IMG/VR virus record: IMGVR_UViG_3300009528_000033
Span: 1 to 27,508 of that record
From: a virus
Reading direction: 5' to 3' (one strand)
Length of the DNA: 27,508 bases
The position numbers and the translations under genes are program-made. The notes under the pieces are model-generated. The model was not told where the DNA came from. It saw only the letters and a program-made list of their open reading frames with translations, and ran no database searches. Below, in pieces: positions 1 through 8,741 of the stretch. How positions within the stretch are numbered: the stretch's first letter is position 1; every line of letters begins with the position of its first letter.

Positions 1-1187
1 CTGTTAATGGGAGAACTGATTGGGTGTCCAAAGAACCTTCTATCGCAACGGCAGGAATAGACTCGGTGAAAGCTGGTCCCCATCCCCGTAAGATCATTCT
101 TGACGATCCTGAAACTGAGGACAATACCTCAAGTCTGGAAGCCTGCGAGAAATTGCTGGACAACTATAGAATGCTCTCGCCGATGTTGAAACAGGGCGGT
201 CAGATGATAGTTATTGGTACTCCTTACTCATTTGATGGAATCTACCACTATATTTTGGAGAATCCAGCCGAGCTCCAGGCTTACGATATTTTAGTGGGCC
301 AAGCTAGAAAAGATTCAGGCATTCTTCCTAAAATTAGCAAAACCTTCATGCAGCTACCGGAAGGCCCAGAAGAGACTCTTTTAATGCCGAATGTTTTGAC
401 CAAAGAATACTTGGATGATGAAGAAGCGAAGGATCCCCCATTTTTTGCCGGACAATATATGATTTCTCTCTCCAGTGGAGGGGCAGCCGAATTCAAAAGA
501 GAATGGTGGAGATATTATCTCGAAAAAGAACTTCCAGAGAAGCTCAAAACATACGTTCTGCTCGATCCAGCCATTTCCCAAAAATCAACCGCTGATTATA
601 CTTGTATCAAAGTAGTTAGCCAGGACGTATTAAACAATATTTTTATCCGCAAGATAATTCACGCTCGTCTTGAGCCGGATGAGGTTATTGAATATTTTTA
701 CAAATTTTTCTTTGACTATCATCCCTATAAAATGGGGATAGAAACCAACGGTATGCAATACCTTTTCAAATGGCAGTTTGACAAGGAAGCGAAGTTTAGA
801 GGGAGACTGCCCATCTTTGAGCTAAAGCACTACGGGAAACAGACCAAGAAGGCTCGCATAAGAGCTTTAATTACACCCTATAAAGAGGGAAGGATTTATC
901 ACTTGGCGGGCAATAAGGAGAAAACAAAAGTTCATCCCGAGCAGAGAATACTTGAATCTCAACTCCTGCACTGGAATCCCAAAAAGAAAATGCACGATGA
1001 TGCGGCTGATACTCTAGCTATGTTCTTAGAGTTAGCTACTCCGAGGACAAAGAGGAAGGGGCGCCGCTGTCCTCGTTGTCGCGGAGACGAATTAATTCGC
1101 CTACGGTCTGGAGGGTATCAGTGCTCGGAATGTCTTTATATTATTACATTGGGCCGCCAGATTGCGGATAAAATGACAGGATATTAG
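1..1187 (+). CDS. terL: Terminase large subunit, 5'-truncated by the window edge
   Basis: The large terminase cuts phage DNA and drives it into the prohead by ATP hydrolysis. The frame is open from base 3 (reading VNGRTDW...), so the gene begins before the window; the in-frame GTG at 24 is not its start. The visible part begins just before the Walker B strand (KIILDDPE). It continues through an IGTPY coupling motif into an RNase H-like nuclease, with acidic residues in LLDPAIS (near base 564), GIETNG (near 740) and HDDAADTLA (near 995). Walker A lies upstream. After the nuclease, the last 45 residues hold CPRC and CSEC pairs spaced like a zinc ribbon, which is not part of the standard terminase core. 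The next gene starts 2 bases after the stop. The family call is firm; the zinc site is inferred. Confidence 0.93.
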   Translation, partial: VNGRTDWVSKEPSIATAGIDSVKAGPHPRKIILDDPETEDNTSSLEACEKLLDNYRMLSPMLKQGGQMIVIGTPYSFDGIYHYILENPAELQAYDILVGQARKDSGILPKISKTFMQLPEGPEETLLMPNVLTKEYLDDEEAKDPPFFAGQYMISLSSGGAAEFKREWWRYYLEKELPEKLKTYVLLDPAISQKSTADYTCIKVVSQDVLNNIFIRKIIHARLEPDEVIEYFYKFFFDYHPYKMGIETNGMQYLFKWQFDKEAKFRGRLPIFELKHYGKQTKKARIRALITPYKEGRIYHLAGNKEKTKVHPEQRILESQLLHWNPKKKMHDDAADTLAMFLELATPRTKRKGRRCPRCRGDELIRLRSGGYQCSECLYIITLGRQIADKMTGY

Positions 1188-1189
1188 AT

Positions 1190-1423
1190 ATGACACCAGA
1201 TGAGTTTAGAGAAATGGTGAGGGCTCTTTTTGGACAAAAGAGAGTAGTTGAGTTGAGTCTAGGCAAAGAGATTTCTTTGAAGCAATCAATTAAACGAAAT
1301 CCCTATTGGATTTTCCTCTATAATTGGGGTATAATAAACGGGGGGACTCCCAGAGTTGTAAGCGCAGGAGAGATTATAGAAAGTCTTCGGAGAAATCAAT
1401 TTCCGCCAATAGGTAAGAGCTAA
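1190..1423 (+). CDS. Small hypothetical protein, 77 aa
   Basis: I do not recognise this protein. It begins with a helix-rich segment (MTPDEFREMVRALFGQK), has an aromatic middle (NPYWIFLYNWGIINGG) and a basic C-terminus. There is no signal peptide, membrane segment or cysteine cluster. The ATG lies 2 bases after the terminase stop, and its TAA abuts the ATG of the following HNH gene, so it is translated as part of the late operon. Reality as a gene is likely from spacing and continuous frame; function is unknown. Confidence 0.7.
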   Translation: MTPDEFREMVRALFGQKRVVELSLGKEISLKQSIKRNPYWIFLYNWGIINGGTPRVVSAGEIIESLRRNQFPPIGKS

Positions 1424-1882
1424 ATGAAGATTTCCAGGAGATTAGAACGCAGTAGAAATTATTACAAAACTCATAAAGACCAATGGGTTCGCTACCGTCT
1501 CGAAAATAAAGAAAAAATACGTGAATATCTAAAAAAATATCGAAAGGAAAATAGAAATGCTAAGCTTAGAGGTATTCAAAAGTTGAAAGAACAAATATTA
1601 ATTCATTATGGCAACAACAAGCTTTCTTGCGTTATCTGTGGCGAAGGTAGATTAGATTGTCTTAGTATAGACCATATCAATGATAATGGAGCAGAACATC
1701 GTAGGGAATTGGGCATAATTGGAGGTGCTTTTTATCGATGGTTGAGAAGAAACGATTATCCTCCTGGTTATCAAACCCTGTGTATGAACTGTCAATTCAT
1801 CAAACGTTTTTCAAAAATTAGAAAAGACTTGGTTTCAAAATATGGGAAAAAATTGAGGGTAATAAATGGGAATCTCCGCTGA
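1424..1882 (+). CDS. Phage HNH endonuclease (free-standing homing type)
   Basis: This is a 152-aa HNH nuclease of the kind common as free-standing mobile genes in phages. A basic, helical, lysine/arginine-rich N-terminus (residues 1-60) probably contacts DNA. The nuclease fold carries CVIC (C69, C72), the catalytic segment IDHINDNGAEHR (H84, H92), and CMNC (C120, C123), which would bind the structural zinc. The RWLRRNDYPPGYQ stretch before CMNC is typical of the phage family. Expected action is a nick or double-strand break in a related phage genome lacking the gene, leading to its copying by repair. The ATG follows the previous TAA directly. Its 3' end overlaps the next small gene by 17 bases. 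It looks more A-rich than the terminase, which fits mobile origin. Confidence 0.88.
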   Translation: MKISRRLERSRNYYKTHKDQWVRYRLENKEKIREYLKKYRKENRNAKLRGIQKLKEQILIHYGNNKLSCVICGEGRLDCLSIDHINDNGAEHRRELGIIGGAFYRWLRRNDYPPGYQTLCMNCQFIKRFSKIRKDLVSKYGKKLRVINGNLR

Positions 1883-2015
1883 AGAGATAAAACGTCGGAC
1901 TTGCCAATGTCGCGACCCCGTATTTAAGTATAGTAAGAGTTCAGATTATTCGGTAGTCTGTATGAAATGTTTTAAGCCATTAACAATAAGGGAAGAACAC
2001 CAGAATGAGATATGA
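1866..2015 (+). CDS. 49-aa protein with CxC...CxxC zinc-ribbon-like motif
   Basis: A short ORF starting at ATG 1866 inside the end of the HNH gene and ending at TGA 2013-2015. It reads MGISAEEIKRRTCQC, then residues to VVCMKC at positions 31-35, then a charged tail. Four cysteines (13, 15, 32, 35) form a CxC-x16-CxxC pattern fitting a small zinc knuckle. It overlaps the HNH gene by 17 bases and the next gene by 11, a coupling arrangement typical of real phage genes. Function is unknown. The cysteine pattern and the tight overlaps are the reasons for calling it. Confidence 0.6.
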   Translation: MGISAEEIKRRTCQCRDPVFKYSKSSDYSVVCMKCFKPLTIREEHQNEI

Positions 2016-2196
2016 ACCGATTTTCGTACCACATCTCAATTTGGAGCAAATTTCATTGCCACTTAATCGTAGATGGCGTGATGCCTACAGGTGGATTGAT
2101 ATTTGCCCGGCGCTTTTAAGTAATGGCAGGCTATATATTGCAAGAAGGAACGCTTTGCCAGTTTTCGTATTACATTTTATCGCTGGAGTAAATTAG
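2005..2196 (+). CDS. Small hypothetical protein, 63 aa
   Basis: An unrecognised small protein starting at ATG 2005, overlapping the preceding zinc-type ORF by 11 bases and preceded by AAGGGAAG. It contains NRRWRDAYRWIDICPALL and ends in a hydrophobic stretch (VFVLHFIAGVN). No domain is recognisable. It ends 12 bases before the next ATG, which has its own GGAGGGTGA ribosome binding site. It may be a decayed fragment; coding status is moderately likely. Confidence 0.45.
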   Translation: MRYEPIFVPHLNLEQISLPLNRRWRDAYRWIDICPALLSNGRLYIARRNALPVFVLHFIAGVN

Positions 2197-2208
2197 GGAG
2201 GGTGACAA

Positions 2209-2946
2209 ATGGAAAACCAGTTTCATTTAAAACGTCTTAAAAGAGATGCGGGAATGAGGCCACAATTATTCCAATTATATTACGAGGAGCAAATGACGTT
2301 GCAACAAATAGGAGATAGGTTTCGACTTACAAGGGAACGAATACGGCAAATCATGGAAAGATTAGGTATGCCTAGATGCAAAAGTCATCTAAACGCGAAA
2401 GGAGGCGAACCTAAATTCAAGACCATTGACGAATATTTCAAACACATCAAAAACGGAGGACAGGAAAGTCTTAGTATTTTACGGAGATTCATTGCTCCAC
2501 TTAAAAAACATTGTAAGGAATGTGGTTCGGTGAGAAGATTGTCTATGCATCATCGTAAATATCCTGCTCTATCTCTTAATGATATTGAAATTTTTTGTAA
2601 CTCTTGTCATATGGCTGGACATAATAAAGGAATTACGATAAATATCCAAAGGGAAATAATTAAAAAATATGTTAATGGACAGGAAACAGTTGAATTGGCT
2701 GAAGAATACAAACTAAGTCGTGGTTTAATTTACAGAATTTTGTCGAAATGGAACACTAGAAAAAGATATCATTCTACGCCAAAGTTGAAAGAAATTGAAA
2801 TTCAGACTGGAATATGTAATAAATATCGAATGGGTAAAAGTGGAGTTGAATTGGCCCGTGATTATGAAGTATCCATTACTCCTATTTATAGAATTCTACG
2901 TCAGCATAATGTAAAAATAAGAGGTTATGCAAGTGCAAGCCCTTGA
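2209..2946 (+). CDS. HNH endonuclease with sigma-region-4-like HTH and two further HTH units
   Basis: A 245-aa modular DNA-binding nuclease. Residues about 18-54 match the sigma70 region 4 helix-turn-helix pattern (TLQQIGDRFRLTRERIRQIM). Residues 101-140 form a zinc-stabilised HNH core: CKEC (102, 105), LSMHHRKYP (H114, H115), then CNSCH (130, 133) and GHNKG. Two similar HTH units follow at about 148-183 (VELAEEYKLSRGLIYRIL) and 200-236 (VELARDYEVSITPIYRIL), of the kind seen in resolvases and transposases, so they look like an internal duplication. The layout suggests a free-standing homing endonuclease with several DNA-recognition modules. The start has a strong GGAGGGTGA site. It is A-rich and unrelated in domain order to the HNH gene at 1424. 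Its stop codon lies inside the -35 box of the following promoter. Confidence 0.85.
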   Translation: MENQFHLKRLKRDAGMRPQLFQLYYEEQMTLQQIGDRFRLTRERIRQIMERLGMPRCKSHLNAKGGEPKFKTIDEYFKHIKNGGQESLSILRRFIAPLKKHCKECGSVRRLSMHHRKYPALSLNDIEIFCNSCHMAGHNKGITINIQREIIKKYVNGQETVELAEEYKLSRGLIYRILSKWNTRKRYHSTPKLKEIEIQTGICNKYRMGKSGVELARDYEVSITPIYRILRQHNVKIRGYASASP

Positions 2947-2970
2947 CAAAAAATTTAAATGTGATAAAGT
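2943..2970 (+). promoter_or_regulatory. Sigma70-type promoter
   Basis: A perfect -35 box TTGACA (2943-2948) is followed after 16 bases by TAAAGT (2965-2970). The -10 box is preceded by TGA, as in an extended -10 element, and the spacer is AT-rich. The predicted start of transcription is about 2975-2978, at or just after the ATG of the next ORF. The -35 box contains the TGA stop of the upstream HNH gene. It would drive the three small ORFs at 2975-3415 independently of the late operon. Confidence 0.6.
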
Positions 2971-2974
2971 ATAA

Positions 2975-3136
2975 ATGTACAATAATAGCGAACTCAAAAA
3001 GAACTTCATGAAAAGAATCTCCGAGGAGCTGGATAGGATTTTAGAAGAAGGTTTCGGGGAACTTAGAGTAATTTATGATAAGCAGAGGGGAGTACAGGAT
3101 GTTATTCCTTCTCCCCGGATTCGGGTGAAATCTTGA
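2975..3136 (+). CDS. 53-aa charged hypothetical protein
   Basis: The ORF starts at ATG 2975, with an alternative in-frame ATG at 3008. It encodes a charged, probably helical protein (KKNFMKRISEELDRILEEG) followed by a short strand-like segment (ELRVIYDKQRG) and a basic end. There is no Shine-Dalgarno before 2975, and the promoter's predicted start site falls at this ATG, so translation would be leaderless or use ATG 3008. Its TGA overlaps the next ATG (TGATG), which supports coding. No family is recognised. Confidence 0.5.
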   Translation: MYNNSELKKNFMKRISEELDRILEEGFGELRVIYDKQRGVQDVIPSPRIRVKS

Positions 3137-3276
3137 TGGCCTTTGCTAAAGACATTTTAGGTATTGACTTAACTCTAGTGCACATGGATATTTTAAAAAC
3201 TCTTGAAAAATATAAAGGAAAAAAGATAAAGTTACTCTGGGATAGACACGGAGTTATGCACATTGGGAATAGGTGA
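3136..3276 (+). CDS. 46-aa hypothetical protein
   Basis: A small ORF starting in a TGATG overlap with the previous gene and ending at TGA 3274-3276. It encodes MAFAKDILGIDLTLVHMDIL, a lysine-rich middle (EKYKGKKIKLLWDRHG) and a short end, with no cysteines or membrane segment. It overlaps the next TTG-started ORF by 14 bases. The gene is supported by chaining of three overlapping frames between a promoter and a terminator-like hairpin. Function is unknown. Confidence 0.5.
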   Translation: MAFAKDILGIDLTLVHMDILKTLEKYKGKKIKLLWDRHGVMHIGNR

Positions 3277-3415
3277 ATTTTATGAAGTAATTGAACTGGG
3301 TCGAAAGAAACTTATTCCTCGAAAGAAGTTCGAGCAGTATTGCCGTGACAGAGAAAGTAAGGGATTCGATATTATTTGGTCAAGCTTTAAAACAAATAAA
3401 ATATGGGTAATTTGA
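3263..3415 (+). CDS. 50-aa protein, TTG start, weakly Xis/HTH-like
   Basis: The frame is open from 3230 to TGA 3413-3415. The best start is TTG 3263, which has GGAG at 3250-3253, nine bases upstream. The segment GRKKLIPRKKFEQYC resembles the wing and last helix of excisionase/MerR-type DNA-binding domains (GRRxxIPRxxFExY), but the usual full HTH before it is too short here. The rest (ESKGFDIIWSSF, TNKIWVI) is strand-like. It might be a truncated DNA-binding protein or simply a small basic protein. The stop codon lies inside a second TTGACA (3412-3417). Confidence 0.5.
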   Translation: MGIGEFYEVIELGRKKLIPRKKFEQYCRDRESKGFDIIWSSFKTNKIWVI

Positions 3416-3441
3416 CAACTTAATATAGTCTGACCTACTCT
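3412..3441 (+). promoter_or_regulatory. Possible weak promoter before the 3448-3521 hairpin
   Basis: A perfect TTGACA (3412-3417) is followed after 18 bases by TACTCT (3436-3441). TACTCT keeps only three of the six -10 consensus positions, though these include the important A at position 2 and T at position 6. Transcription would begin near 3447, at the foot of the hairpin at 3448. The weak -10 makes this tentative. Confidence 0.25.
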
Positions 3442-3447
3442 GAACTT

Positions 3448-3521
3448 GAGCGGTCAATCTTAGCATTCTAACCAAGGGGTAGTCCCCCAATCGGTAGGTG
3501 CTACGGTTGGCCGCTTTTTTT
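3448..3521 (+). terminator. Long hairpin with T7 tail: intrinsic terminator or small structured RNA
   Basis: An 8-bp outer stem pairs GCGGTCAA (3450-3457) with TTGGCCGC (3507-3514), extendable by A-T and G-T pairs. It is followed by seven T (3515-3521). Inside, TAGCA (3461-3465) pairs with TGCTA (3499-3503), ACC with GGT, and an apical GGGG-TAGT-CCCC (3476-3487) caps the rod. The U tract marks it as a Rho-independent terminator ending the small-gene unit from the 2943 promoter. It is much longer than a usual terminator hairpin, so it may also be the body of a small RNA. It sits 24 bases before the next gene's ATT start. Confidence 0.6.
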
Positions 3522-3544
3522 ATGGATATAGCGGAGGTGCTGAA

Positions 3545-3727
3545 ATTCCTTATACCACCAAGGAAAAAAAGCTTTATAGAAGCCTGAAAAAGCAATATGG
3601 CAAAAGAGCCAAGGCTGTGTATCATGCGATGTTAAACAGCAAAAAACACGATAAAGTCTTTGGCGCTAGGAGCAAAAAAGAAAGGACTGCTAAGAAAAAG
3701 AGAGGAAGAAAGAGGAGAAAAAAGTAA
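3545..3727 (+). CDS. 60-aa strongly basic protein, apparent ATT start
   Basis: Translation from ATT 3545 gives a protein beginning (M)PYTTKEKKLYRSLKKQYG, with KAVYHAML in the middle and a C-terminal third that is almost all Lys/Arg. The frame has no ATG, GTG or TTG before this point downstream of the hairpin, while GGAGGT at 3533-3538 sits six bases before the ATT, an ideal spacing. Small basic proteins with this YTTK...LY..LKKQYG pattern are, from my general knowledge, frequent near phage portal genes. The TAA (3725-3727) overlaps the next ATG. Role unknown; nucleic-acid binding is likely from charge alone. Confidence 0.6.
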   Translation: MPYTTKEKKLYRSLKKQYGKRAKAVYHAMLNSKKHDKVFGARSKKERTAKKKRGRKRRKK

Positions 3728-3954
3728 TGATAACTCTAAAAAAATTGCAAAAAATAATCAAGCAAAATTTTGGGACTCCATTTCTCCCAAAAGGTTTTGT
3801 GCAGGTTAGAGATGTATCAGATATTTACAAAGAACCTGCTCTGTCCATTCATATAGGTGACAGAGATGTAACTATTGGAGAAACTGGAGAACAATTTGGT
3901 TCTGGTTCAGGAGTGGGCGAAGGGGTAGAGTGGAAAATAGAGAGGAAAAAGTAA
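3727..3954 (+). CDS. Small hypothetical protein, 75 aa
   Basis: Unrecognised. It has a basic helical N-terminus (ITLKKLQKIIKQNFG), a strand-rich centre (GFVQVRDVSDIY, LSIHIGDRDVTIG) and a glycine-rich end (GSGSGVGEGVEW). It starts in a one-base stop/start overlap with the basic protein upstream and ends in a TAATG overlap with the portal. The position suggests a minor morphogenesis protein. Confidence 0.65.
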   Translation: MITLKKLQKIIKQNFGTPFLPKGFVQVRDVSDIYKEPALSIHIGDRDVTIGETGEQFGSGSGVGEGVEWKIERKK

Positions 3955-5705
3955 TGGCGGAAGAAGAAAAAGACGAGGATTTACAAGAAGTTCTCGATAA
4001 ATACCAGCTTTCCACAGATTATCGCACTTCTAATGACTTTGAGACGAACCTAGACACCTACAAAGATTATTACGAAGGGACCTCTGAGGAAACTAGAGAC
4101 AGAGCAGCTCAAGAGAGATCTGCTATCCTGCCTCCCTGGCCCAAAACAACGGTAAATCATCTCTTGGCTCGGTTCATTTTAACCATTTGTGGCCAGAAGC
4201 CTTATTTTTCCACAGCCCCCCTAAACAAGAAATCAATCAAATCCTCAAAAATAGCTAATGACGTACTCTTTTTCCAAATAGATAGAGAAAGTCCTTTTTA
4301 TCAAATTAACCGTTTTATTCAATCAGTTCTATGTTATGGATTCGGTGTTCTCAAAACTGGTTGGGATTTTACGCCGGATGACGTAACCATCAAGAATTGG
4401 GATATTAGGAAGTTTCACTATTCCCCTCACGCCGAGGATTTGACCATTTTGCCCTGGGGTATTTTTGAGCTATATCGCTCGCTTAAAGATATACAGACCG
4501 AGAATGAAGCTTTTAAGAAAACGCATAAGGGGAAACTGCTCTATGACAATTTGGATGAGCTTGAGGAACGGCAAGTGACTATAATGGAGGACGAATCAGA
4601 TAAGTATACCGCAGAGGAAAAGAAAGGCTTACAACATATCTTAGAATACTGGGATCTAGATAAGAAAGTCGTTGTAGCCAACGAGGAAACTGTAATCTTG
4701 AAGACTGAAAATCCAGTAGGATTTGTGCCTGCTGTCTGTGCCTGTGGTATTCCCAAGCTGGAAGGCATTTTAGGGACGGGTGAGATTGAAACAATTGAGC
4801 CGTATGTAAGAGAAATGGCGACCATCAAAAATCAAAGGATGGATAACGTCAATATGGCTCTCAATCCTGTTTTACTGAGGAACATCAATGTTGAGATCGA
4901 GAATGAAGATGAGTTGTCGCAACTTAGACCCGGCCTCCAAGTCAAGATCGACGTTGTTGAGAGTGTTGACGTTGCTACCGTTCTCACGCCCCTGAGACTC
5001 GATTTTGTCACTGCCTCCTCTTATCAAGAAACGGCAATTTTAGAGAGAAATATTCAGATCATAAGCGGTATGTTTGACTACGTTCTGGGAGAAGTCCCAC
5101 AGCAACGAGAAACTGCTACTGGTATTGCTCGTCTTCAGGCTGCCGGAGGCATACTATTCCGGTACAAGATCCTACTGACTCTTAGAACGGCTTTCACCCT
5201 TCTACCTCGTCAGATGATAGCCTGGGATCAGAAATATCTTCCCGATAAATATTTTTATCTTCTTCGAGGCACCAAAGAGGGAATTCAAGAATTTAGAGAG
5301 ACCAACCGCAAGAGTATTCAGGGTGATTTCAAATTCAAAGAACTTATTTCTTCTCTTGACCCTGATGCTATGAAGGAAGTTAAAAGGGCTCAATTGATGG
5401 AGACTCTGAGGATAATTATTCAGGCCCAGCAAATACTGATGACTCTCCCTCCTCCAATGAAAGAGAAAGTAGAGAAGCTGATGAACCTTGTTCTGGCAAC
5501 CTTTGATATGCCAGAGCTAGAAGAGATATTTGGAGAGGAGGGGTCAGAGGAGATGACACCCGAGATCTTAATGCAGCGTCTTATGGGGCAAGGAATGGGA
5601 GGAGGAGTTCGGGGGGCAACACCAGCTCTCGGAGCACCAAGGACGGAGGGAAAGGCGGTTGGCGGTTTAATGGGCCGTGAACTTGGCCGCTTAGGAGGGC
5701 GTTAA
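3954..5705 (+). CDS. Portal protein
   Basis: The portal forms the ring at the capsid vertex through which DNA enters and leaves and which anchors terminase and tail. ATG 3954 was chosen over the upstream GTG 3930 because it forms a TAATG overlap with the previous gene and has AGAGG eight bases upstream. The 583-residue length and the order suit long podovirus-type portals: an acidic N-terminus, LLARFILTICGQKPYFSTAP, then FIQSVLCYGFGVLKTGWDF. They continue with GTGEIETIEPYVREMATIKNQ and RETATGIARLQAAGG, then a helical barrel-like C-terminus. The last 40 residues are glycine-rich. Placement between terminase and scaffold/capsid supports the call strongly. Confidence 0.9.
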   Translation: MAEEEKDEDLQEVLDKYQLSTDYRTSNDFETNLDTYKDYYEGTSEETRDRAAQERSAILPPWPKTTVNHLLARFILTICGQKPYFSTAPLNKKSIKSSKIANDVLFFQIDRESPFYQINRFIQSVLCYGFGVLKTGWDFTPDDVTIKNWDIRKFHYSPHAEDLTILPWGIFELYRSLKDIQTENEAFKKTHKGKLLYDNLDELEERQVTIMEDESDKYTAEEKKGLQHILEYWDLDKKVVVANEETVILKTENPVGFVPAVCACGIPKLEGILGTGEIETIEPYVREMATIKNQRMDNVNMALNPVLLRNINVEIENEDELSQLRPGLQVKIDVVESVDVATVLTPLRLDFVTASSYQETAILERNIQIISGMFDYVLGEVPQQRETATGIARLQAAGGILFRYKILLTLRTAFTLLPRQMIAWDQKYLPDKYFYLLRGTKEGIQEFRETNRKSIQGDFKFKELISSLDPDAMKEVKRAQLMETLRIIIQAQQILMTLPPPMKEKVEKLMNLVLATFDMPELEEIFGEEGSEEMTPEILMQRLMGQGMGGGVRGATPALGAPRTEGKAVGGLMGRELGRLGGR

Positions 5706-5706
5706 A

Positions 5707-5988
5707 ATGAAAAATAAAGAAATTATCGAGAAGGCTGAAATCTTAGAGGGGGGAATATCTACCCCATTTTGGAAAGAAGTCTCGGGTTTTATTGGTCAAG
5801 AGATAAACAAAGTTTCTGAAGGAATTATTAAGGGCGATTTTGATGAGCTCAAGGAACTGTATTTTTTGAAGGGACAGCTCATAGGATTAGCAAAGGCTTC
5901 ATGTTATCCTAAGAAGATTATCAAACGAAAGAACGAGCTGGAGAAGGAAGCAGAGAAAAAAAAGAAGAAGGAGAAGAAGGGGAAATAG
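5707..5988 (+). CDS. Small phage protein next to portal, lysine-rich tail
   Basis: A 93-aa helical protein with FWKEVSGFIGQEINKVSEG and LYFLKGQLIGLAKASCYP, followed by a run of Lys/Glu (residues 75-93). A short helical protein with this W...I...L.GQ..GL pattern next to the portal is, from general knowledge, common in metagenomic podovirus-like genomes, but I know no established function. It starts 1 base after the portal stop and ends 1 base before the next gene. It could be a chaperone-like or minor head protein. Confidence 0.75.
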   Translation: MKNKEIIEKAEILEGGISTPFWKEVSGFIGQEINKVSEGIIKGDFDELKELYFLKGQLIGLAKASCYPKKIIKRKNELEKEAEKKKKKEKKGK

Positions 5989-5989
5989 T

Positions 5990-6433
5990 ATGGTTGATGC
6001 AATTTTAGATAAATTGAAAAGCGTAACGAATAAAGATGACTTTACGACTTGGTATGCCAAACACGCGAAACAGTTGGGATTAAATCCCGATCCAGATGAC
6101 CCGAAACACTTTTACGATTATCGAGCTGCTTTCAAAGCAGGCGTGGAACCTGACGAGAAGGGACATTGGCCTGATACTTACAAACTGCCTGGACATCCAA
6201 CTTTACTTAGGGCAAAGGAGTTTTCTGAAATAGAGGCAATTATAGAAAAGGCTAAGGCTAGTTTTTTAGAAAATGAAGATTTACAACTGGCAGATTTAAT
6301 TGGTACTATTTCTGAGGATTTAGGCAATCTCATTAAGCCAACCGGGGAAGAAGAGAACGAGGCAATAGTAGAGGGAATTGCTGAAACAAAATCTAAGAAA
6401 TTAGCGACTATAGACCAAATTAAGGAGGAATAG
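5990..6433 (+). CDS. Conserved phage structural-region protein (DYRAAFKAG...GHWPDTYK motif)
   Basis: A 147-aa protein containing FYDYRAAFKAG and EKGHWPDTYKLPGHPT at residues about 41-72. This motif recurs in many phage head or ejection proteins as DY-RGAY-AG...GH-PD-YK-P-HPT; its molecular role is not established. The C-terminal half is acidic and helical (ATIDQIKEE at the end). It lies between portal and scaffold, spaced 1 base from its neighbour upstream, and its end carries the AAGGAGG site for the next small gene. A virion or assembly role is inferred from place. Confidence 0.8.
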   Translation: MVDAILDKLKSVTNKDDFTTWYAKHAKQLGLNPDPDDPKHFYDYRAAFKAGVEPDEKGHWPDTYKLPGHPTLLRAKEFSEIEAIIEKAKASFLENEDLQLADLIGTISEDLGNLIKPTGEEENEAIVEGIAETKSKKLATIDQIKEE

Positions 6434-6592
6434 ATGACCGAGCATGATAGGGGTGTTTTAGAGGTTAGTAGAAGCTTGCTTAAAAAGGGTGCGAATGAAA
6501 TATCGGTCGGAAGCAAAGTTAAATCTTATCGAAAAATCGCAGGTATTCTACGCAAGGAATTTCCTACTAAACAAATTAAAACTCATAGATAG
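6434..6592 (+). CDS. 52-aa basic hypothetical protein
   Basis: ATG 6434 comes directly after the preceding TAG and has AAGGAGG (6422-6428) five bases upstream. The product (SRSLLKKGANEISVGSKVKS, then KIAGILRKEFP) is basic and helical, reminiscent of a short DNA-binding or regulatory peptide, but matches nothing I can name. It sits between the GHWPD protein and the scaffold and ends 11 bases before the latter. The strong ribosome binding site and tight spacing support coding. Confidence 0.65.
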   Translation: MTEHDRGVLEVSRSLLKKGANEISVGSKVKSYRKIAGILRKEFPTKQIKTHR

Positions 6593-6603
6593 GAGAAAGT
6601 AAG

Positions 6604-7401
6604 ATGGATAAAGAGCAAAAAACCAATACCGTTGGTAAGGAGCCCCCAGAGGGGACACCTCCCAAAGACGCTGGTGAAAAGCTTATTTTTGGGAAGTATA
6701 AGACGATGGAGGAAGCCGAAAAAGGAGAGAAAGAACGAGAGACTAAATTTACTCAAGCACACCAAGAGCTTGCTGACGCTAAAAGAGAATTGGAAATAGA
6801 AAGACAAAAGAGCAAGCTAGTAGAGGAGAAGCAAGAGGAGATAAGAAAGGCTAAGACGGAAGAGGAGAAACAGAGATTACAGCAGGAGCTAGACCAGAAT
6901 TTAGAGAGAATGGGAAAAGAGTTTGCCGAGGAATCTAAGAAAGGCCCGGCGGCAATGATGAGGGGGTTTCATCGAATGTTTGATGCTTATGCTTCTACGC
7001 AAGGTTTCGTAAAGCGGGGTGACCTCAAGCGTCAAAGCGTTGCAGACCGAAAGCAAACTGATCTATTCAATAAAGTTCGGGCTGCTCATAAAGAGGATTT
7101 TGAGGAATTGGCGCCCAAAATGGTTGAAATCTGGGCGGGATTGCCCCCGGAGACCAAAATGCGTCCTTCCAAAGAACTCCTAGAGACAGTTTATCAGGCA
7201 GCTAAAGCTAAGAACTTGCCTGATGAAGCAAAATTAAGGGAAAAGATTATTGCCGATATGCGTGCTGGACACGGTGAAAGCGGAGGAGAAAAACTACCTC
7301 CAGGAGAGAAGAAATCGGAAGACGAAAAATATACTGATGATGTAATTAAGGAATACAAAAAAACAAAAGTAGTGTTATCGGAACAACCTAAGGGGGATTA
7401 G
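6604..7401 (+). CDS. Capsid scaffolding protein
   Basis: Scaffolding proteins template prohead assembly and are removed before DNA packaging. This 265-aa protein is highly charged, with FGKYKTMEEAEKG at residues 29-41, a motif typical of phage scaffolds. A long coiled coil follows (about 40-120, rich in E/K/Q/R with regular hydrophobics), then a helical C-terminal half (FNKVRAAHKEDFEELAPKM). It has no cysteines and an acidic/lysine end. Its position directly upstream of the major capsid gene is the usual one. AGGAGA precedes the ATG. No protease domain is visible. Confidence 0.85.
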   Translation: MDKEQKTNTVGKEPPEGTPPKDAGEKLIFGKYKTMEEAEKGEKERETKFTQAHQELADAKRELEIERQKSKLVEEKQEEIRKAKTEEEKQRLQQELDQNLERMGKEFAEESKKGPAAMMRGFHRMFDAYASTQGFVKRGDLKRQSVADRKQTDLFNKVRAAHKEDFEELAPKMVEIWAGLPPETKMRPSKELLETVYQAAKAKNLPDEAKLREKIIADMRAGHGESGGEKLPPGEKKSEDEKYTDDVIKEYKKTKVVLSEQPKGD

Positions 7402-7417
7402 AAACAATTTTCAATAC

Positions 7418-7463
7418 CCTCAAGGCTATGAGCTCTTCTTTGGAAGAATACCTCTAGCTGAGG
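7418..7463 (+). promoter_or_regulatory. Stem-loop in the capsid gene leader
   Basis: CCTCA (7418-7422) pairs with TGAGG (7459-7463), then after a two-base bulge GCTA (7425-7428) with TAGC (7455-7458), and TCTTC (7434-7438) with GAAGA (7443-7447) around a TTTG loop. It lies in the 113-base gap between scaffold and capsid genes. It could time expression or guard RNA ends; pairing is by eye. Confidence 0.4.
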
Positions 7464-7482
7464 CTGGAAAGTAAGAACTAAT

Positions 7483-7507
7483 CTCCATAAAATCTGAATT
7501 ATGGAGG
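7483..7507 (+). promoter_or_regulatory. Hairpin overlapping the capsid gene ribosome binding site
   Basis: CTCCATAA (7483-7490) is a perfect 8-bp complement of TTATGGAG (7499-7506), with loop AATCTGAA. The 3' arm contains most of GGAGG (7503-7507), which is seven bases upstream of the capsid ATG at 7515. When folded, the hairpin would hide the ribosome binding site, so it is a candidate translational switch, for example opened by ribosomes or closed by a bound protein. Confidence 0.55.
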
Positions 7508-7514
7508 AAATACG

Positions 7515-8741
7515 ATGGCTAGGGGAATTTATGATATTTTGACCGACCAAAGAACTTTGGATTGGGGAAACAAGATTCTCAATCTTGAACCTGATTCTGC
7601 TCCTTTCCTGGTTGTCTCCATGAAGCTCGGATCGGAAAAAGCAGTTAACCAGAAGTTCATCTCATTTGAGGATAGACCCTACCTGAGATGGTTCTATGTA
7701 GGAGAAGCTGTTGGTGGAGTCGGTAGTTTGACAGATTTGGATTTAGAGATTGCGGAAGATGATGATGACCACGTAGCAGCGGCAGCCTACATTCAAACGA
7801 GAGACCTTCTCTATGATCCTGTGCACGACCATACCATGCTCGTCACTAGTGTTGATTATGATACTGGCCGGATAACTGTAACCAGAGAATACGCTGGACA
7901 GGGAGAAGGAGCCGCGCTCTTTGATGGTAGGACGGCGGATGTCAGCGGTGATACGACTTCTGATACTCATACTGACCCTCTTGACGGAGATAGAATCGTA
8001 AAGGTCTCCAATGTCTATCCCGACGGTGGAGGCTCTGCGGTTGCTCGTGCCCTTGCCATGACTGAGGTTTTCAACTTCATTCAGAAATTCCAGCTTGCCT
8101 ATGATGTTGATGAGGAGACTATGCTTGCTGAACTCAAAGGCGGGCCTGAATTGAAGAGACTTCAGGCAAGAAAGGCAATTGAGCATCTAAAGGACATAGA
8201 ACTACAGCTTATACTCGGCGACAGGGATGCACGATACGAGACTGTTAGTGGCCAGCGAAAGATGGTTTACACCACGGGTGGGCTTCTCCACAGCGACATT
8301 ACAGTGCAGAGTATAGCAACGGCTGATTTCACCGAAGAGGCTTGGAGAAGCTTCCTGAGACTTTGTTTTGCCGTTGAAGGTAGCAAAGAAAAGCTTATGC
8401 TTTGCGGAGGCCAGATAGTTGAGGCAAACGATAAGTGGGCCATGGGAAGAGTGGTAATTAACGATAAGTTAAGTGCCATTATGGGAATGACTGTCCCTGC
8501 CTATGTTACCACTTTCGGAAAGCTCAACCTGGTTTACCATCCTTTGCTTAAGAACAGCTTTGAAGGTTACGGGATTGTTCTGGATATGAACTACCTGAAA
8601 CTCAAAGTTTATGGTGCAGCTACCCAGCTTCAAACTGGACTCCAGGCAAATGACGCTCAGGAGAGAAAGGACCAGTATCTATCTCGATTGGGACTCAAGC
8701 TCGGACTGAAAGAAGTTCACAGGATTTTGAAGGTTGTATAG
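7515..8741 (+). CDS. Major capsid protein, HK97 fold, SU10-like
   Basis: A 408-aa capsid subunit. Residues 1-55 (DILTDQRTLDWGNKI..., SAPFLVV, EKAVNQKFISFEDRPYLRW) match the N-terminal arm pattern of SU10/DUF5309-type capsids. The next part (HTMLVTSVDYDTGRITVTREYAG) matches their early beta insert with 'VT.V...ITVTR..GT'. EVFNFIQKFQLAYDVDEE corresponds to the 'NYTQIFR..VEVS' segment after it. GKLNLVYHPLLK and a basic helix-rich end close the fold. It follows the scaffold and a structured leader and is followed by a stable hairpin, as expected for the most highly expressed gene. The HK97 fold is likely; the SU10 subgroup is inferred from motif order. Confidence 0.85.
   Translation: MARGIYDILTDQRTLDWGNKILNLEPDSAPFLVVSMKLGSEKAVNQKFISFEDRPYLRWFYVGEAVGGVGSLTDLDLEIAEDDDDHVAAAAYIQTRDLLYDPVHDHTMLVTSVDYDTGRITVTREYAGQGEGAALFDGRTADVSGDTTSDTHTDPLDGDRIVKVSNVYPDGGGSAVARALAMTEVFNFIQKFQLAYDVDEETMLAELKGGPELKRLQARKAIEHLKDIELQLILGDRDARYETVSGQRKMVYTTGGLLHSDITVQSIATADFTEEAWRSFLRLCFAVEGSKEKLMLCGGQIVEANDKWAMGRVVINDKLSAIMGMTVPAYVTTFGKLNLVYHPLLKNSFEGYGIVLDMNYLKLKVYGAATQLQTGLQANDAQERKDQYLSRLGLKLGLKEVHRILKVV

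Follow-up and report, generated by a model that had tools for sequence, protein, structure and literature searches.

Morons are accessory loci of phages (Juhala 2000; Cumby 2012, both as cited in PMC7067206). They are extra genes among the phage genes, often equipped with a promoter and terminator of their own and absent from relatives, and are usually single, unrelated insertions. The promoter-terminator cassettes of T4-like phages, or PeSLs (Arbiol 2010; Comeau 2014, both as cited in PMC4503421), combine a conserved promoter with a stem-loop, are associated with gene shuffling and, in the account given there, are dense in the shuffling regions. In acr-aca operons a small constant gene stands beside changing small genes under one promoter; the Aca proteins, HTH repressors, bind to an inverted repeat in that promoter (PMC9410906). 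The antiviral hotspots of P2 and P4 are small high-turnover loci (1-5 kb) that occupy a fixed site flanked by conserved genes, with core genes of the phage as their borders (PMC9122126).

In the window, that is, the whole stretch of 27,508 nucleotides analysed here, a unit at 2943-3521 is flanked by TerL upstream and portal downstream (PHROGs), all on the + strand, and with its relatives it recalls each of these systems in part. The moron features that can be read from the DNA are present: an own promoter (by sequence, in 9/9 cassettes), an own T7 terminator and absence from one relative, L047, as against L022 and L032. Yet constant ends and a constant gene recur here around different cargo, together with an invariant RNA core. 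The repeated composite early promoter and stem-loop of PeSLs is not found, the covariance model of the RNA element placing it once per record, and no T4-like genome is involved. Unlike the PeSLs as PMC4503421 presents them, the cassette has a constant gene (ORF1) at its left, the promoter to the left and the stem-loop to the right of the cargo, and a long covarying hairpin with a variable tip. As for acr-aca operons, ORF1 has no HTH and comes first where aca comes last, and the promoter spacer has no conserved repeat. The cassette is smaller than the P2/P4 hotspots (about 0.1-0.6 kb), and has its own ends and different gene contexts. In the lambda late leader, pR'-tR', a promoter, short transcript and strong terminator precede the packaging genes on the late strand under the control of Q; the cassette shares this arrangement but lies inside a gene run, is protein-coding and mobile, and has no Q-like protein identified with it. 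Overall, the closest known kinds are morons and T4 PeSL cassettes, and the defining features of PeSLs and acr-aca operons are lacking.

The unit in the window and its relatives

The features, with window positions, are as follows.

2209..2946, + strand: HNH/HTH endonuclease-like gene with HNH and HTH family matches; abuts the -35
2943..2970, + strand: sigma70-type promoter, TTGACA-N16-TAAAGT (TTGACA 2943-2948, 16-nt spacer, TAAAGT 2965-2970)
2975..3136, + strand: ORF1, 53 aa, the constant cassette microprotein
3134..3415, + strand: cargo slot, running from TTGA (ORF1 stop) to TTTGA (RNA element start)
3136..3276, + strand: ORF2, 46 aa, cargo gene 1; TGATG overlap with ORF1
3263..3415, + strand: ORF3, 50 aa, cargo gene 2; TTG start, 14-base overlap with ORF2
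3412-3521, + strand: RNA element, whole; the 3' element found in 9/9 cassettes
3414..3430, + strand: hairpin I, weak (3414-3418 with 3426-3430); precedes hairpin II
3431..3458, + strand: invariant 28-nt block, mean pairwise identity 0.992
within 3431..3458, + strand: hairpin II, a possible antiterminator (3431-3435/3452-3456 and 3438-3440/3448-3450; UGACC/GGUCA, CUC/GAG)
3448..3521, + strand: hairpin III, intrinsic terminator (hairpin 3448-3516 with variable apical part, T7 at 3515-3521)

The promoter and the three overlapping small ORFs, with their TGATG and 14-base overlaps, lie where the first-pass annotation had put them. Between terL and the unit the window holds two HNH-like genes and three small ORFs besides. 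The HNH-type endonuclease-like genes (1424-1882 and 2209-2946) are not at these places in L005 or L006. The second, with matches to a sigma70 region-4-like HTH, HNH and a Mor-like HTH, lies directly before the promoter both in the window and in L022 (74% nucleotide match); L003, L005 and L006 do not have it there. It is an optional neighbour and a possible mobiliser of the cassette, though most copies are without it. A search of viral contigs with its protein gave no further relatives; this search was insensitive, as it missed L022, which carries one.

Seven relatives, 81-87% identical, came from a portal search. Nine distinct cassettes emerged both from pattern scans, aimed at the hairpin and the stretch before it, and from an independent scan for ORF1: the window, L003 (identical in L004), L005, L006, L022, L032, L035, L037 and L038. 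A tenth, L007, is truncated, its contig starting inside the RNA element. These represent about nine independent copies, all from uncultured virus contigs. The ORF1 scan, made without the RNA sequence, led to the same contigs, and every ORF1-positive contig has the RNA; promoter, ORF1 and RNA element occur together in all nine distinct cassettes. The covariance model found one true place in each of 11 records and none in nine others, its weak opposite-strand matches being the hairpin's own palindrome. Among cultured phages and plasmids the searches gave no homologue of ORF1, ORF2, ORF3, the portal or the whole unit. Other hits, namely 18-mers in bacterial genomes (L029-L031) and viral loci L026, L028, L033, L034 and L036, had no matching hairpin or ORF1 and were set aside as chance.

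The identities of terL and ORF1 do not run in parallel. L005 and L003 share 90% in terL and 45% in ORF1, L005 and L022 29% and 88%, L022 and L032 88% and 60%, and L035 and L037 21% and 77%; the cassette is common to phages with terminases 20-31% identical. By these comparisons, unrelated phages exchange the cassette horizontally. It always lies near terL: in the terL-portal gap in the window lineage and upstream of terL in others; in L022 and L032 it follows TerS-like genes. L047, with a terL 74% identical to that of L022 and a TerS-like gene just upstream of it, has no RNA element, and no ORF1-like ORF between the TerS-like gene and terL. In the window's own lineage no relative empty of the cassette was found, and the direct terminase-portal junction that the first-pass annotation had proposed to look for in relatives did not appear there. 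Its proposal of a moron, with cargo expressed independently, is supported by the horizontal exchange, the conserved promoter and terminator and the state of L047, but the three ORFs do not form one unit.

The left end and the cargo slot

The promoter has the top score (10/12, with TG before the -10) among 20 sigma70-like sites in 1-8000. Since shuffled sequences give 16.0 +/- 3.6 such sites, the promoter match alone proves little; it is the comparison (promoter in 9/9 cassettes, purifying selection on ORF1, covariation in the hairpin stem) that lifts the unit above chance. TTGACA is perfect in all nine cassettes and is followed at 16-17 nt by a -10-like hexamer (TATAAT in three, TAATAT in two, and CATAAT, TATTAT, TATACT and TAAAGT once each). 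The spacers are not conserved and by inspection hold no common sequence or repeat. Against shuffled downstream sequence the -10 gave p values of.004-.25 per copy; the nine combined by hand with Fisher's method give about 1e-6, a rough figure for related copies. A run of at least four G stands directly before the -35 in six of the nine (L003, L005, L006, L032, L035, L037); it is missing in L038 and in the two copies where an HNH gene abuts the promoter, the window and L022.

ORF1 has homologues in 9/9 cassettes, at 43-88% identity between lineages, with G-F-G, D, P, PRIR and K invariant over the nine; the window protein ends in a PRIRVK tail. Judged by its substitutions (pN < pS in all pairs), ORF1 is under purifying selection. 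Its model is one helix plus a beta-hairpin (alpha-beta-beta, pLDDT 82). ORF1 has no family or fold match; the top PDB hits of the fold search, MADS-box proteins at E 0.6 or worse, are not significant. A possible resemblance to DUF2292 (PF10055) was not borne out, as at E<=10 the Pfam model matched nothing in five cassette genomes and it matched none of the nine members, and an Aca-like regulator was rejected given the fold, which is no HTH, and a promoter free of repeats. For all three window proteins, family searches returned no accepted match, in line with the first-pass annotation.

In 8/9 copies the first ATG of ORF1 falls on the -10 or no more than a few bases from it, which places it at or before the predicted transcription start (in L038 it is 21 nt downstream of the -10), and several copies have no clear ribosome-binding site there. 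Over codons 3-11 the conservation of third positions comes close to that of first and second positions (0.753 vs 0.807), unlike in the remainder of the gene (0.657 vs 0.491, 0.772 vs 0.524). This fits a partly non-coding role for that stretch, and the true start may be internal. For aca8 of archaeal viruses a promoter is reported to lie within the 5' part of the predicted coding sequence, with the true start 84 nt downstream (PMC11065993).

The slot opens at the ORF1 stop, which is TTGA in seven copies. The gap measures 280 nt in the window, 146 in L003, 84 in L032, 174 in L037, 211 in L038 and 122 in L035, and is empty in L006, L005 and L022; with three copies lacking cargo, cargo is not essential to the spread of the cassette. 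The contents are a 47-residue zinc-ribbon protein (L003), single-TM proteins of 28 (L032; hydropathy maximum 3.0) and 58 residues (L037; 2.1), a 68-residue soluble protein (L038) and about 115 bases with no clear ORF (L035). The cargo proteins are mutually dissimilar and, where present, begin no more than a few bases from where ORF1 stops. In the window, L003, L032 and L037 the cargo stop is a TGA within the first bases of the RNA element (TTTGACAACTT or GTTGACAACTT), and in L006 the TGA of these bases is ORF1's own stop. Short repeats mark both edges of the slot: TTGA or, in L035, TTGACAAT.

Since slot contents differ and ORF2 and ORF3 are absent from every relative, we regard both as cargo, not core. 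It is these two ORFs that are missing where relatives keep the region, an outcome that the first-pass annotation had set against its own proposal; ORF1 is not missing. The evidence that ORF2 and ORF3 are coding is their overlap geometry and, for ORF2 only, codon usage: its codon score is 0.222 in frame vs -0.109 and -0.024 out of frame, and that of ORF3 only 0.097 vs 0.066 and 0.056. Searches gave no homologue or family match for ORF2. ORF3 resembles Pfam PF09035 below the cut-off (E=0.013), with weak similarity to Tn916 Xis in wing and helix; its single-sequence model is beta-beta-helix (pLDDT 76), with no fold match and no homologue found. Family searches gave no match by which the cargo could be tied to inhibition of CRISPR-Cas or to anti-defence, exclusion or takeover. 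All cargo so far is shorter than 70 residues and without known family, and two of six are single-TM proteins, a type common among exclusion and takeover proteins. The cargo genes are good candidates for proteins acting on the host, and a host-directed function (anti-defence or exclusion) is plausible.

The 3' RNA element

The first-pass annotation ended the unit with a hairpin and T7. Both are present and the stem covaries, but the element is more than a plain terminator, being preceded by the invariant 28-nt block. Across the aligned copies this block is the most conserved part of the cassette, with a mean pairwise identity of 0.992 vs 0.562 at ORF1 third codon positions and 0.535 in the apical part. 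The whole element folds at -30 to -45 kcal/mol in the nine cassettes. In the window, the hairpin at 3448-3516 reaches -37 kcal/mol (z = -3.8; 0/200 shuffles as good); the terminator scan omitted it, presumably because its apical part exceeds the scan's 3-8 loop. The terminator stem, counted over 18 pairs, has 96.7% of cells paired and six pairs changed on both sides; the observed pairing and the observed covariation score are each reached in 0/500 shuffles. The tip of hairpin III differs in sequence and length, and a long hairpin is predicted in every copy. Hairpin I has 79% of cells paired and two pairs changed on both sides; the window forms 4/5 of its pairs.

The predicted hairpin II (-8.8 kcal/mol in the window and most relatives) uses the 5' arm of the terminator stem. 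Being invariant in all copies, it is beyond the reach of covariation. When its 5' half was replaced by shuffles, an equally stable fold arose in 3% of cases. In growing-transcript folds of four copies an early hairpin forms, hairpin II in three of the four and a different fold in L006, and is replaced by the terminator only once the 3' arm is complete. Two terminator positions keep U.G and G.U in nearly all copies, as double duty in hairpins II and III would require, though this is suggestive only. The predicted and conserved layout would be of attenuator type, with two mutually exclusive hairpins, one of them an intrinsic terminator, and hairpin II may act as a competing switch.

Apart from tRNA, no Rfam family reached gathering score in the window or in eight related loci; the weak hits to Esr41 and rli were far below it. 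A second promoter inside the element (TTGACA-N18-TACTCT), by which the hairpin would be its own sRNA, is not favoured, as its spacer is 15 in L006 and two copies have TTGGCA. A likeness to integron attC sites (conserved base, variable tip) was also set aside: the T7 and a stem that covaries over its full length are as expected of a terminator, and there is no integrase close by.

Readings of the cassette

Comparison of the copies shows a conserved composite unit, exchange of cargo, horizontal transfer and a conserved terminator structure. We consider it probable (roughly 0.7) that this is a mobile cargo cassette with fixed ends, transcribed by host polymerase, with coupled cargo translation and a terminator that shields the packaging genes. 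By the comparison, a constant left end (promoter and ORF1), an exchangeable slot at the ORF1 stop and a constant right end (the RNA leading into the intrinsic terminator) travel together. Host RNA polymerase would transcribe the cassette from its promoter independently of late transcription; translation of the cargo would be coupled to that of ORF1 through the TTGA or TGATG junctions, its reading frame would be closed by the TGA in TTTGACAACTT, and the terminator would keep cassette transcription out of the packaging genes. It is plausible that cargo is swapped by recombination between the constant ends, possibly aided by the HNH gene next to it. The unit lies inside a same-strand late run, and from 3521 to the portal gene no strong promoter was seen, so that in the window lineage an always-on terminator should reduce portal expression; either the late polymerase passes the terminator or the terminator is regulated. 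Late transcription would have to pass it in any case and, less confidently, hairpin II might make termination conditional by sequestering the terminator 5' arm.

In a different, unlikely reading, promoter, ORF1 and RNA form the leader of a late-operon attenuator, a regulated terminator gating transcription into terL or portal in the manner of lambda pR'-tR' under Q, and the cargo is incidental. The position of the cassette, which in every case lies in the packaging region and on the late strand, agrees with it, as do the invariance of the competing hairpin and terminator, the constant pairing of ORF1 with the RNA, like regulator and target, and the three copies without cargo. Yet the cassette sits inside a gene run (after TerS-like genes in L022 and L032, after terL in the window) and not at its head, moves freely among unrelated late operons and is dispensed with in L047, and no antitermination protein was identified. 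We give equally little credence to a recombination module in which promoter and stem-loop are kept chiefly as homology for gene shuffling. Conserved ends around changing genes and the short repeats at both slot edges are what such a module would leave, and PeSLs are described, in the account of PMC4503421, as mediating shuffling in T4-like phages. Those genomes have PeSL-dense shuffling regions, whereas the cassette is single in each genome; moreover, the covarying stem and the purifying selection on ORF1 argue that both are kept for function and not only as homology.

Somewhat more doubtful still is a new RNA switch, in which hairpin II is a true antiterminator and ORF1, its constant partner, binds or senses it, the two together setting stop versus run-on into the packaging genes; the cassette would then serve as a mobile platform from which host-directed cargo is expressed under regulation. 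The 3'-end sRNAs (small regulatory RNAs) usually consist of a single-stranded stretch and a strong terminator. The element has this layout and its stretch before the terminator is the most conserved part, but we think it quite improbable that the cassette mRNA gives rise to such an sRNA at its 3' end, with the invariant stretch as pairing region, as nascent folds have much of this block paired internally, no identical or complementary match of at least 12 bases occurs elsewhere in the window, and Rfam gave no match. Chance alone, by which small random ORFs would have fallen between a consensus-like promoter and an ordinary terminator, is very improbable: promoter- and terminator-like matches are as frequent in shuffles of 1-8000 and ORF2 and ORF3 lack homologues, but conservation across phages with terminases 20-31% identical contradicts it for promoter, ORF1 and RNA; ORF3, with its weak codon score, may be due to chance.

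Returning to the cargo cassette, its promoter, ORF1 and RNA model offer a sequence handle to collect exchangeable small phage genes, as aca does for anti-CRISPRs. A conserved covarying RNA outside Rfam, at a place where a terminator ought to hurt the phage, also turns regulated read-through into a testable question.

Several features were seen next to the cassette. Window 3545-3727 is a 61-codon lysine-rich ORF (IPYTTKEKKLYRSLKKQYG...) with no ATG, GTG or TTG start; its likely start is ATT after GGAGGTGCTGAA, and the start is ATT in L005 and L007 and ATG in L003 and L006. A lysine-rich ORF of 68-82 aa follows the RNA element in L003 (5443-5691), L005 (1611-1817) and L006 (551-799), and the window is without it. 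Before the portal the window has a 75-aa ORF (3727-3954) in place of the relatives' 39-42 aa basic ORF. L022 (about 3010-3180, minus strand), L032 (13700-13950) and L037 (after 2360) have another intergenic element in common, immediately behind the cassette and before terL or its neighbours: AGTTTAACTATGAACTCCCCGC..CGGGGATAA and, following it, a hairpin that contains GGGCGTTTTTT. Finally, terL is split over both ends of IMGVR_UViG_3300009528_000020 (44504 bases; end L032, start L048), by which this record looks like a circularly permuted, near-complete genome.
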